From the NCBI RefSeq assembly GCF_013394165.1, contig NZ_CP041330.1:496001-560000 (forward strand): 64,000 nt of DNA, given 5' to 3'. The notes beneath the pieces are model-generated. The model was not told the origin of the DNA. It saw only the letters and a list, made by a program, of their open reading frames with translations, and made no database searches. This DNA is from Pseudoalteromonas sp. Scap06. Lineage in GTDB: Bacteria > Pseudomonadota > Gammaproteobacteria > Enterobacterales > Alteromonadaceae. The stretch's first letter is position 1. The number at the start of each line of letters is the position of its first letter. This document shows positions 699 through 16,574 of this stretch, one piece after another. A program made the translations under genes and the position numbers.

Positions 699-730
699 AA
701 AAACCTTGCGATGTTAACCGCAAGGTTTTT
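699..730 (-). terminator. Rho-independent terminator of the MBL nuclease gene (hairpin copy A)
   Basis: The arms AAAAACCTTGCG (699-710) and CGCAAGGTTTTT (719-730) pair perfectly over 12 bp around an 8-base loop. The arms begin and end in A/T runs, so it can act on both strands. It sits between convergent genes. The same hairpin recurs at 2364-2395, 11389-11420 and, with changes, 16480-16511. Confidence 0.8.
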
Positions 731-737
731 AAATATC

Positions 738-764
738 TCGAACCTCGAACCTCGAACCTCGAAT
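738..764 (-). repeat. Heptamer array (TCGAACC)3, GGTTCGA on the minus strand
   Basis: Three exact TCGAACC units (738-758) are followed by a broken unit. On the minus strand the array lies 8 bases after the stop codon of the nuclease gene and before its terminator hairpin. Compare the arrays at 2403-2451, 11428-11441 and 16519-16574. Confidence 0.9.
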
Positions 765-772
765 TTGTCTCC

Positions 773-2152
773 TCACTTCCCAATCTCAACTTTTACATCA
801 TCACCCAGTACTTCCCTATACTTTGTAGCGAGTGCATTTTTAGCGTCATCATCGCCGTGGACTATTTTTATATGGCGGGGTTTTTTGCGCATACCGGTTA
901 CAAATTTAATTAAACCAGTTTGATCGGCGTGGGCGCTGTAGCCGCTTATTGTGTGTATTTTGGCGTTAATATTAATGTGGGTATTATTTATAAATACATA
1001 GCCATTTTTTGGGCCATAGGTTTGTATGTCGCGACCTAAAGTACCTCTGCCTTGGTAACCTACAAATAGTACGTCGGTGGTTTTGTCGATTAAAAATCGC
1101 TCTAGGTAGTTAACTATTCGTCCGCCGGTGCACATACCGCTTGCAGCTAGGATAATTGCAGGTTTTTGGCGGGTGGCTAGGTAATTTATTAACGCTAAGT
1201 GCTCGCTATGGGTATTTATTGTAGTGAGGTTTTCAAAGTCGAGAGGATGGCGGCCTTTGGCTACTTTTTGTTTTGCTTCTTCATCCCATAAATATTTAAA
1301 TTTTCGATACTGCTGAGTAAAATTAGTCGCCATCGGGGAGTCGAGTATTACTTGTATTGTGCGCCAAGGTGAGTTTTTAGTTGAGGCATGAATTAGCTGT
1401 TCAAGTTCGTATAACAGCTCTTGTGTACGGCCTATACTAAATGCAGGCACAAGCACGATACCGTTGTCGGCAACTGCGCGCTCAATCACAGCTTTTAAGG
1501 TTTGCGTACGTTGTTTTCGTCCTTGATGGTTTTTATCACCATAGGTTGACTCAATTACTAAGGTATCGGCTTTATAGGGCGCTTTAGGTGCGGGTAGCAA
1601 AGGCGTATAGGGCGCCCCTAAATCACCTGAAAATACGACCCGATGGCAGTTTTTAGCTTTACGAGTTGGTATGCTTATATCTATTTCAACATAAGCGGAG
1701 CCTAAAATGTGCCCTGCTCGTTGTAGACGGGCTTTGGCTATGTGTTCACCTTTGCAAGGAAGCTCAAACCAGGTTTTAAAATCAACTTCAATAATTTGCT
1801 GTTTAAGTAACCTTAGGCAGGTATCTATTATTTTTTGATCGCGTGTGACGCCCACTTTTAATGCATCTTCAATCACTAGTGGCAGTAAACTAGCCGATGC
1901 AATAGAGGTAAATATGGGTCCTTTAAAGCCAGCCATTAATAAGTAGGGGATTCGGCCAACATGATCGATGTGACAATGGGTAACGATCAGCGCGCGGACT
2001 GTATCTATATTAAATTCAATATTAAGATCATCAACAGAATCTTCACCTTGAAATAGTCCGCAGTCAATTAGAAAAGAGCTTTGATCGTTTATTATCAGCT
2101 GGTGGCACGAGCCTGTTACGCCATTTACCGCTCCGTGGTGAAGTATTTGCAT
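773..2152 (-). CDS. Metallo-beta-lactamase fold, beta-CASP RNA-processing exonuclease-like protein
   Basis: This 459-residue protein has the zinc motif THCHIDHVGR (H59, H61, D63, H64), a beta-CASP insertion (VIESTYGDKNH, FSIGRTQELLYEL) and the C-terminal segment of RNA-metabolising MBL enzymes (GYQGRGTLGRDI, then SGYSAHADQ). This layout belongs to the YSH1/CPSF73-like family, which cleaves RNA at a two-metal site, so RNA processing or decay in the cytoplasm is inferred. The exact substrate is unknown for the bacterial group. It is downstream of ppaC on the same strand but separated by a 300-base repeat spacer, so it probably has its own transcript. Confidence 0.85.
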   Translation of the reverse strand: MQILHHGAVNGVTGSCHQLIINDQSSFLIDCGLFQGEDSVDDLNIEFNIDTVRALIVTHCHIDHVGRIPYLLMAGFKGPIFTSIASASLLPLVIEDALKVGVTRDQKIIDTCLRLLKQQIIEVDFKTWFELPCKGEHIAKARLQRAGHILGSAYVEIDISIPTRKAKNCHRVVFSGDLGAPYTPLLPAPKAPYKADTLVIESTYGDKNHQGRKQRTQTLKAVIERAVADNGIVLVPAFSIGRTQELLYELEQLIHASTKNSPWRTIQVILDSPMATNFTQQYRKFKYLWDEEAKQKVAKGRHPLDFENLTTINTHSEHLALINYLATRQKPAIILAASGMCTGGRIVNYLERFLIDKTTDVLFVGYQGRGTLGRDIQTYGPKNGYVFINNTHININAKIHTISGYSAHADQTGLIKFVTGMRKKPRHIKIVHGDDDAKNALATKYREVLGDDVKVEIGK

Positions 2153-2361
2153 TTTATGTCCTTATGTTTTGGCTGCGGGCCTCGGGTTACGGCTCGAAGC
2201 TCGAATCCTAGCACTTAGAGCCTAAGTCTTTATTTTATAGGTAAATATAGCAGGTATTTTAATGTGGGAGGGTCTTTATACCGTAACGGACGAGCCACGA
2301 GCCAAGAGGACCTAGCACCTTGCTCCTAATACTGACGCGGGATGAACCCGTCTACAGGCAT
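2153..2361. repeat. Mosaic intergenic repeat, copy B
   Basis: The spacer between ppaC and the nuclease gene has no ORF. It holds GC-rich units such as GGCTGCGGGCCTCGGGTTACGG and ACGGACGAGCCACGAGCC, and then CTGACGCGGGATGAACCCG (about 2332-2350). These match modules of the other copies. It leads directly into terminator hairpin B. Confidence 0.6.
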
Positions 2362-2363
2362 AA

Positions 2364-2395
2364 AAAAACCTTGCGATGTTAACCGCAAGGTTTTT
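2364..2395 (-). terminator. Rho-independent terminator of ppaC (hairpin copy B)
   Basis: AAAAACCTTGCG and CGCAAGGTTTTT form a 12-bp stem with a run of seven A on the plus strand, which gives a U tract in the minus-strand transcript. It is identical in stem and loop to the hairpin at 699-730. Confidence 0.85.
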
Positions 2396-2402
2396 AAATA
2401 TC

Positions 2403-2451
2403 TCGAACCTCGAACCTCGAACCTCGAACCTCGAACCTCGAACCTCGAACC
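2403..2451 (-). repeat. Heptamer array (TCGAACC)7 abutting the ppaC stop codon
   Basis: Seven exact tandem copies. The last base of the array is also the last base of the ppaC TAG codon, so the transcript runs from the stop codon straight into GGTTCGA repeats and then the terminator. Confidence 0.95.
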
Positions 2452-15953: not shown

Positions 15954-15959
15954 TATACT
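15954..15959 (+). promoter_or_regulatory. -10 box of rnpB
   Basis: TATACT lies 7 bases before the predicted RNA 5' end. No clear -35 hexamer is seen at 16-18 bases. CTGCGT at 15931 is the best placed but poor. Confidence 0.5.
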
Positions 15960-15966
15960 GCGCGCC

Positions 15967-16330
15967 GAGTTAGCCAAGATAATCGCTGCCTGTGACGAAA
16001 ATGATCAGGGGGAGGAAAGTCCGGGCTCCACAGGGCAGAGTGCCAGTTAACGGCTGGGGGGCGTGAGCCCACGACAAGTGCAGCAGAGAGAAGACCGCCA
16101 ATCTTCGGATTGGTAAGGGTGAAAGGGTGCGGTAAGAGCGCACCGGGCCGCTAGTAATAGTCGGTTGCAAGGTAAACTCCACTCGGAGCAAGACCAAATA
16201 GGGTTCCTTATGGCGTGGCCCACGTTGGAACCGGGTAGGTTGCTTGAGCCATAGAGCAATTTATGGCCTAGACGAATGATTATCACTTTCTTCGGAAAGG
16301 ACAGAACCCGGCTTACCGGCTAACTCACTC
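15967..16330 (+). ncRNA. rnpB: RNase P RNA (M1 RNA), class A
   Basis: Catalytic RNA that processes the 5' ends of tRNA precursors. Diagnostic conserved blocks are GAGGAAAGTCCGGGCTCC (16013 onward, CR I), AGGGTGAAAGGGTGCGGTAAGAGCGCACC in two pieces (16109-16144), AACTCCACTCGGAGCAAGACCAAATAG, and ACAGAACCCGGCTTACCGGC at the 3' end. The 5' GAGTTAGCC pairs with 3' GGCTAACTC to form P1, which sets the ends to within a few bases. Minus-strand ORFs over this region are shadows. Confidence 0.97.
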
Positions 16331-16337
16331 ATTCAAT

Positions 16338-16371
16338 AAAAAAGCCCGCAGTTAACGCTGCGGGCTTTTTT
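16338..16371 (+). terminator. Rho-independent terminator of rnpB
   Basis: AAAAAAGCCCGCAG and CTGCGGGCTTTTTT pair around a TTAACG loop, then T-rich sequence. Confidence 0.93.
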
Positions 16372-16384
16372 GTGTTTGAGACAA

Positions 16385-16479
16385 GCTGTCAGGTTCCAGG
16401 CGGGAGGGGGGCGGCGAGCTTCGGGTTGCGGGCTTAAAACCTAACCCCGACGCGAGACTAAGTATCGCTTTAAGGCATA
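16385..16479. repeat. Mosaic intergenic repeat, copy D (convergent spacer rnpB / mscS)
   Basis: GC-rich units (GGCGGGAGGGGGGCGGCGAG, GGGTTGCGGGC) are followed by ACCCCGACGCGAGACTAAG and AAGGCATAAAA, matching the end of copies B and C. It runs into hairpin D. Confidence 0.6.
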
Positions 16480-16511
16480 AAAAACCTTGTAATGTTAACC
16501 GCAAGGTTTTT
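16480..16511 (-). terminator. Rho-independent terminator of the MscS gene (hairpin copy D, diverged)
   Basis: Left arm AAAAACCTTG, right arm CAAGGTTTTT. Copy D has GTAA where the other three have GCGA, so the stem is two pairs shorter. Confidence 0.75.
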
Positions 16512-16518
16512 AAATTTC

Positions 16519-16574
16519 TCGAACCTCGAACCTCGAACCTCGAACCTCGAACCTCGAACCTCGAACCTCGAACC
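16519..16574 (-). repeat. Heptamer array (TCGAACC)8
   Basis: Eight exact copies, ending 3 bases from the complement of the MscS gene stop codon. It is the longest array in the window. Confidence 0.95.

Follow-up and report, generated by a model that had tools for sequence, protein, structure and literature searches.

Four unrelated genes on the minus strand of a 64,000-nt stretch of the Pseudoalteromonas sp. Scap06 genome (hereafter the window) end in the same way: the stop codon is followed by a tandem array of the heptamer GGTTCGA and then by a 32-nt hairpin that looks like an intrinsic terminator. Here, we describe this cassette in Scap06 (genome G000, with two replicons of 3.38 and 0.75 Mb; the window is C1:496001-560000) and in related species. 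The copies cluster in one chromosomal neighbourhood, keep a single orientation and are inherited locus by locus, and their arrays differ in length and unit at the same gene end. The explanation that we consider probable combines a strong terminator copied to several gene ends, inheritance by locus, heptamer growth in situ and placement by selection.

The cassette at four gene ends

An order of stop codon, array and hairpin had been proposed from the window alone, and direct reading together with pattern searches bears it out for four minus-strand genes, with AAATTT or ATATTT between heptamers and hairpin (Table 1). The gene names proposed at the same time are backed by PF10996 (beta-CASP nuclease), NF003877 (ppaC), NF008247 (dolP) and PF00924 (mscS). 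Within the window the 32-mer is found on the minus strand only, without mismatches at beta-CASP, ppaC and dolP and with two at mscS (0 matches expected from 100 shuffles), and the motif GGTTCGAGGTTCGA, allowing one mismatch, is found in the same four places only (0 expected from shuffles). The arrays, of 2-8 units, stand 10 nt from the stop codon at beta-CASP, 3 nt at mscS and 8 nt at dolP (the last read directly), and at ppaC the distance is -1, the array having the last base of the stop codon in common with the gene, as first noticed.

The original prediction did not mention the GTAG-type repetitive extragenic palindrome (REP) that follows the hairpin on its 3′ side at three sites (beta-CASP, ppaC and dolP). 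These REPs have the layout GTAG, 7 nt, TTTA, 7 nt, and inverted partners lie 48 nt away at beta-CASP and 17 nt away at dolP; tag, short palindrome and inverted partner are features of REPs and of REP doublets forming hairpins (REPINs). The REP position at ppaC comes from a hairpin regular expression allowing three substitutions, which is too permissive for any other use and was kept for that position only.

Table 1 Features of the four cassettes, in window positions.
Feature	Position	Strand	Source
Inverted partner REP GTAGGTGGGGCTTTATGCCGCG (beta-CASP)	599..620	+	REP patterns
GTAG-type REP palindrome (beta-CASP)	669..690	-	REP patterns
Putative hairpin terminator (beta-CASP), stem reaching about 22 pairs here	699..730	-	Pattern search; fold
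GGTTCGA array, 3.9 copies (beta-CASP)	737..763	-	Tandem Repeats Finder (TRF); read
Beta-CASP/metallo-beta-lactamase-fold nuclease gene	773..2152 (stop 773-775)	-	PF10996, PF07521; open reading frame (ORF)
GTAG-type REP palindrome, shortened form (ppaC)	2336..2355	-	Loose hairpin regular expression
Putative hairpin terminator (ppaC)	2364..2395	-	Pattern search; fold
GGTTCGA array, 7.3 copies, one base in common with the ppaC stop codon	2402..2452	-	TRF; read
ppaC, manganese-dependent inorganic pyrophosphatase	2451..3410	-	NF003877
Inverted partner REP (dolP)	11320..11341	+	REP patterns
GTAG-type REP palindrome (dolP)	11359..11380	-	REP patterns
Putative hairpin terminator (dolP)	11389..11420	-	Pattern search; fold
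Two GGTTCGA-type units, second altered (dolP)	11428..11441	-	Read; GGTTCGAGGTTCGA search
dolP	11450..12016	-	NF008247
Putative hairpin terminator with two changes (mscS)	16480..16511	-	Pattern search; fold
GGTTCGA array, 8.3 copies (mscS)	16518..16575	-	TRF
MscS-type channel gene (mscS)	16578..17690	-	PF00924, PF21082

The hairpin consists of a 12-bp stem with an A-tract before it and a T-tract after it, and at all four window sites a stable stem-loop and a T-run follow the stop codon in the coding sense. Six folded stretches, the four window sites included, are far more stable than shuffled sequence (z -3.8 to -9.3), and 96% of the stem cells are paired across 23 distinct sequences. Intrinsic (Rho-independent) terminators have a stem with an A-tract and a T-tract directly behind genes. 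The cassette hairpin looks like one in stem, tracts and position, and differs in being one near-identical sequence at unrelated genes; the symmetry of its two tracts suggests that it is probably usable from both sides. The role in termination that was originally proposed agrees with these sequence features. A mobile module of the 3′ untranslated region (UTR) with a special role is not needed for most observations. A search against Rfam found RNase P alone in the window, and six matches in five cassette loci all lay below gathering scores. The RNase P RNA gene itself (window 15966-16331, plus strand) is convergent with mscS and its cassette.

One neighbourhood, one orientation and inheritance by locus

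In the whole Scap06 genome (4.13 Mb) the 32-mer occurs five times at up to three mismatches, always on the minus strand and always inside C1:439807-512511 (73 kb); for five random points such clustering has a probability of about 5e-7. One of these close copies lies outside the window, behind gor (NF004776, 740.9 bits). A covariance-model search of 108 genomes, run with stricter filters that lose weak matches, added a sixth copy at 45 bits. It is diverged, lies at C1:452437, again on the minus strand, and has another heptamer, (GGCTTCG)n. A scan of genome contigs for the core hairpin matched five contigs, four from Pseudoalteromonas and one from a Ruminococcaceae metagenome-assembled genome. 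Every regional copy has its array first on the minus strand, so the random orientation that would have spoken against a gene-end module is not seen; the other such outcome, copies explained only by shared descent, does apply to a large part of them.

By crude ORF calls the Scap06 region has 56 plus-strand and 8 minus-strand genes, with 20 plus-strand transcription-unit ends. By equally crude gene calls, the minus-strand transcription-unit ends with a hairpin no more than 160 nt away number 5/7 in Scap06, 4/5 in G105, 5/11 in G068 and 4/14 in G100 (the Scap06 mscS is included, and the read-through mscS of G100 is not counted). C1 opens with a gene that we take to be dnaA, followed presumably by dnaN and recF, which puts the probable origin at position 1. 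Assuming this, and a terminus about half-way, the minus-strand cassette genes are oriented against replication. Strong copies occur at a single distant locus, behind a gene whose product ends in EDDFFK, in G068, G100 and G092. It is a plus-strand locus, at 2.87 Mb (of 3.24 Mb) in G068 and at 2.98 Mb (of 3.40 Mb) in G100. It too runs against replication, 0.37-0.42 Mb from the origin, a distance near that of the main cluster (0.43-0.56 Mb); in Scap06 the covariance model gives no match for this locus (the orthologue there was not read). These positions (2.87-2.98 Mb) are near the mirror position of C1 0.43-0.56 Mb, and in G037 dolP is found at 2.95 Mb, the kind of pattern that inversions symmetric about the origin would leave.

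One REP type, searched genome-wide at up to two mismatches in Scap06 and four sister genomes, has 3 copies in Scap06 and 3 to 19 in the others, mostly in one region. Between gor and mscS lie 3/3 of them in Scap06, 9/11 in G068, 6/8 in G100 and 3/3 in G105, and in G092, which has mscS and dolP elsewhere, 17/19 lie between gor and about 10 kb past ppaC. Among the matches listed for other genomes, several exact REPs are 20-100 kb from ppaC in the more distant G034, G045, G046, G072, G073 and G076, with others 200-350 kb off, on other contigs or unplaced (one G045 group); exact REPs are 45 kb from ppaC in G005 and at least 300 kb away in G003, G016, G023, G057 and G083, and this distance is uninformative for genomes split into many contigs. 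Heptamer arrays in the GNTTNNA class are spread more widely, with 7 of 14 places in Scap06 within C1:410-545 kb and the others on both replicons. Hence, the concentration is strong for hairpin and REP in the five-species clade, weaker for heptamers and patchy elsewhere, and orthologous copies do not count as independent events. Our guess at a mechanism is local copying between sites that are replicated close together.

Two other origins of the repeats were considered and dropped. The copy number is too low for DNA-uptake-sequence terminators (five copies of the 32-mer genome-wide; half-stems alone were not counted), and no candidate donor turned up for a segment imported from a relative that carries REPs throughout its genome: exact copies of the searched REP type occur in at least 37 of 108 genus genomes, with at most 18 in each. 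The neighbourhood also holds two further dispersed intergenic repeats, around ACCACAGAGTACACAGAGACGC and CAAAGAGAAGTGAATGAGGAGTAAATGAGAA (window 11146, 11285 and 57920; L112-L130), and the CAAAGAGAAGTGAATGAGGAGTAAATGAGAA type occurs in stretches L059 and L065 as well.

Across five species (Scap06, G100, G068, G105 and G092, the last being more distant) the cassette stands behind gor and ppaC in 5/5, and behind dolP and mscS in 4/4 of the species with the gene in the fetched stretch, Scap06 included; the G092 dolP, on another contig, has neither hairpin nor array. The beta-CASP copy is present in Scap06 only, with no array in G100, a short (GGTTCGG) array in G068 and about 44 copies of AGTTAGA in G092, and the gene was not found in the fetched G105 stretch. 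At a further site, X1, the cassette is present in G100 and G068, and another heptamer array takes its place in Scap06, G105 and G092. Since presence differs between species at beta-CASP and X1, the block has spread or been lost. The comparison of orthologous spacers that had been suggested thus gives the differences looked for but no clean empty site, as spacers with and without the cassette are more than one event apart.

Copies at the same locus in different genomes have an identity of 0.878 (39 pairs). The value is 0.819 both for two loci within one genome (53 pairs) and for pairs with neither locus nor genome in common (233 pairs). By permutation of 26 copies, a set from which more diverged copies (G068 mscS and G092 gor, for example) are absent, the locus signal has p=0.0005 and the genome signal p=0.79 (0.41 for stem and loop alone). 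The copies are inherited by locus.

Heptamer turnover and placement

The arrays follow a process of their own. For dolP we compared 36 spacers, the 30 best loci of 108 plus six picked for hairpin hits, so that the proportions are not those of a sample. The hairpin is present in 11, preceded by a single heptamer in four (G037, G036, G039 and G050) and by 2, 6, 8, about 10, 12, 16 or 76 units in the other seven, the units being GGTTCGA, GGTTCTA or GAGCAAC; in 24 spacers there is no array and the terminator is of another type, by eye a broken one in a single case, and G092 again has neither hairpin nor array. Among the best 30 of 107 ppaC loci, 13 have arrays starting 0-7 nt behind the stop codon, with units GGTTCGA (5), GCTGTAA (4), GGTGCTA/GTGCTAG (3) and AGTGCTA (1). 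A terminator-like hairpin and T-run come next in 11 of the 13; G050 has a hairpin with a weak T-run and G039 runs to the sequence end. GCTGTAA is the last seven bases of ppaC including its stop codon, which suggests that this array grew out of the gene end.

In 450 kb of the five species, TRF at 3.5 copies or more reports 61 arrays, 58 of them with period 7 and one each with 14, 42 and 10, and no tandem arrays in 100 kb of five Scap06 control stretches. The arrays have a tandem 7-nt period and a copy number that varies between relatives, as heptamer simple sequence repeats do. Intergenic period-7 arrays start within 15 nt of a stop codon in 16 of 56 cases, compared with a mean of 3.0 for random intergenic placement, and cassette arrays do so in 12 of 17 (0.9 expected). 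A claim that heptamer arrays generally hug stop codons was dropped for the region, because 12 of the 16 stop-near arrays belong to the cassette; closeness to the stop codon characterizes the cassette and, in other species, ppaC. Some non-cassette arrays stand 16-29 nt before start codons. The mscS array of G100 stands in place of the final codons and the stop codon, and the reading frame continues through it as GSRFEVR repeats. Growth of the arrays therefore looks blind, and coding sequence usually, but not in every case, acts as its barrier.

For the mobile 3′ UTR module of the original prediction this means that the repeated block and its variation between species at orthologous sites stand, but not array and hairpin as one fixed unit, given that length and unit vary at the same gene end. 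Nor is placement precise by mechanism, as had been supposed: X1 and the diverged copy at C1:452437 lie upstream of genes and not behind stop codons, and the G100 array runs into mscS.

Further arrays, with units GGTTCAA and GGTTAAA, lie at window 6071-6120, 6590-6619 and 48471-48517. The first stands behind a different terminator-like hairpin, and the last starts 3 nt behind the stop codon of the gene at 48520-51138. Very long arrays of 76 to 92 copies occur at G100:C1:473992-474590, 500610-501138 and 502258-502902, and the heptapeptide ORFs of long heptamer arrays (also in L149) could mislead gene callers.

Competing explanations and significance

In the explanation that we favour, a strong intrinsic terminator, mostly with a GTAG-type REP on its 3′ side and a resident GGTTCGA in front, would have been copied to several gene ends in one neighbourhood. 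Most of this copying would have preceded the split of the sister species, with inheritance locus by locus and occasional gains or losses afterwards. The heptamer before the stem would expand and contract in tandem by 7-nt steps, independently at each site and most likely by slippage. Selection would set the position: a copy would persist where it supplies a terminator or takes the place of one, and array growth would be possible chiefly in the untranslated gap. The sequence, clustering and orientation of the copies, their inheritance by locus and the differences of array length and unit at one gene end are observed, and from there we infer copying, termination activity, slippage and selection as the cause of placement. 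Several observations weigh against this explanation. The X1 array in G100 and G068 lies about 90 nt before a plus-strand gene rather than at a stop codon, and that at C1:452437 ends 24 nt before a plus-strand gene start, as does its G105 counterpart in like manner. Arrays without this hairpin are at stop codons in 4 of 39 cases with 2.0 expected, a number reached by 26 of 200 random placements. Stem covariation is weak, with 2 of 12 pairs changed on both sides and as much in 67 of 500 shuffles; compensatory change was therefore rejected as proof of selection on the RNA and as comparative proof of its structure.

The strongest of the competing explanations, although we would not bet on it, is that hairpin and GTAG REP, with an inverted partner, travel together as a REPIN-like element mobilized by a REP-associated tyrosine transposase (RAYT) and inserting at gene ends, the heptamers being its left edge. 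By eye, 18 of 26 hairpin copies have a GTAG-type REP directly behind them and one more has ATAG, but the other seven have none or a decayed one, leaving 8 of 26 without an intact GTAG REP. Several unrelated loci preserve a junction made up of a T-run, ACC or GCC, and TGTAG. The GTAG-7-TTTA-7 layout is common to the regional REPs, and inverted partners accompany some of them. When the stretches of Scap06, G100, G068 and G105 are searched with three REP patterns, the hairpin precedes 13 of the 15 REPs on the minus strand, but it precedes 0/22 minus-strand REPs in G092 and 0/61 plus-strand REPs across the five species. At gor no GTAG REP is found in that orientation in any of the five species, an inverted one lying 22 nt on in Scap06. 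The genome does encode a RAYT (L144 1566-2012; NF047646, 134 bits, cut-off 80) with a REP of the regional layout beside its start, but the gene lies at C1:3.34 Mb and that REP has other arms. The high genome-wide copy number expected of GTAG REPs and REPINs is not seen for the one type searched, which has only the three copies given above. Miniature inverted-repeat transposable elements are marked by terminal inverted repeats and a target-site duplication; by eye, the orthologous spacers, more than one event apart, show no clean duplication.

It is improbable that array and hairpin form a selected 3′ UTR element, regulatory or protecting the mRNA, in which array length matters. Arrays do recur at one position with differing units at ppaC and dolP, and ppaC array plus hairpin fold far better than shuffled sequence (z -6.6), but 17 of the best 30 ppaC spacers have no array, 25 of the 36 dolP spacers have neither hairpin nor array, unit and number of heptamers are not conserved, and the cassette genes have no obvious common function. 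We give even less credence to ongoing ectopic gene conversion that homogenizes gene ends (concerted evolution). It would fit the near-identical hairpins at five Scap06 loci and the beta-CASP copy, which has the flank GAGATATTT and the hairpin in common with neighbouring ppaC; however, copies group by locus and not by genome, and identities between loci of one genome equal those of unrelated pairs, so ongoing conversion, and with it the original suggestion of spread by this route, is not supported. Least likely by some distance are palindromes that serve as protein-binding sites marking the region, on the model of the known region-marking sites parS and matS. Such sites would account for the concentration of REP and hairpin copies near gor and ppaC in five species, but the several unrelated repeat types of the neighbourhood point to a process rather than to one site, and the copies differ between species.

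Terminator, REP and heptamer repeat are each of known kinds. What is new is the join of all three, the heptamer turnover at a fixed place and the regional concentration, which for hairpin and REP remains the surprising point. The heptameric simple sequence repeats of Xanthomonas (GGGAATC) likewise stand close behind stop codons, but with one G-rich unit type, whereas Pseudoalteromonas has many units, turnover at the same gene end and, in cassettes, a terminator-like hairpin directly behind (PMC4692102). With GTAG-type REPs, bacterial interspersed mosaic elements and REPINs with RAYTs, the likeness lies in GTAG tag, short palindrome, inverted partner, position near genes and a RAYT in the genome, and the difference in the few copies of the searched type, the join to a terminator hairpin and the single chromosomal neighbourhood (PMC3733652, PMC3116915). 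The TAACTGA heptamers of Beggiatoaceae and others are also intergenic direct repeats near genes that differ between close strains mostly by 7-nt steps, but they have one unit and lie mostly before start codons in the main genome, unlike the Pseudoalteromonas arrays (PMC4679880). For Pseudoalteromonas, no account of such heptamer arrays or REPs was found in open-licence PMC papers, which is no proof of absence, and the repeat passages of the P. haloplanktis TAC125 resequencing paper name none (PMC6848147).

A bolder possibility, which we regard as doubtful and a shade less likely than the RAYT-mobilized element, joins two things. Place-bound arrays would copy whatever 7-mer fills the gap between stop codon and terminator, the gene's own stop included, so that period and place are conserved and sequence is not; and a neighbourhood of about 75 kb would copy and keep terminator, REP and heptamers on one strand relative to replication, with few in much of the genome. 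It is weakened slightly by arrays without the hairpin, which are not clearly enriched at stop codons. To our knowledge, local spread is not predicted by current REP/REPIN models. The orthologous series from one heptamer to 76 at one gene end makes the old question why repeats in bacteria prefer a 7-nt period directly testable. If true, copying on one strand of a neighbourhood would suggest a local process coupled to the replication fork, and, if the regional concentration is real, small bacterial repeats can spread locally rather than genome-wide.

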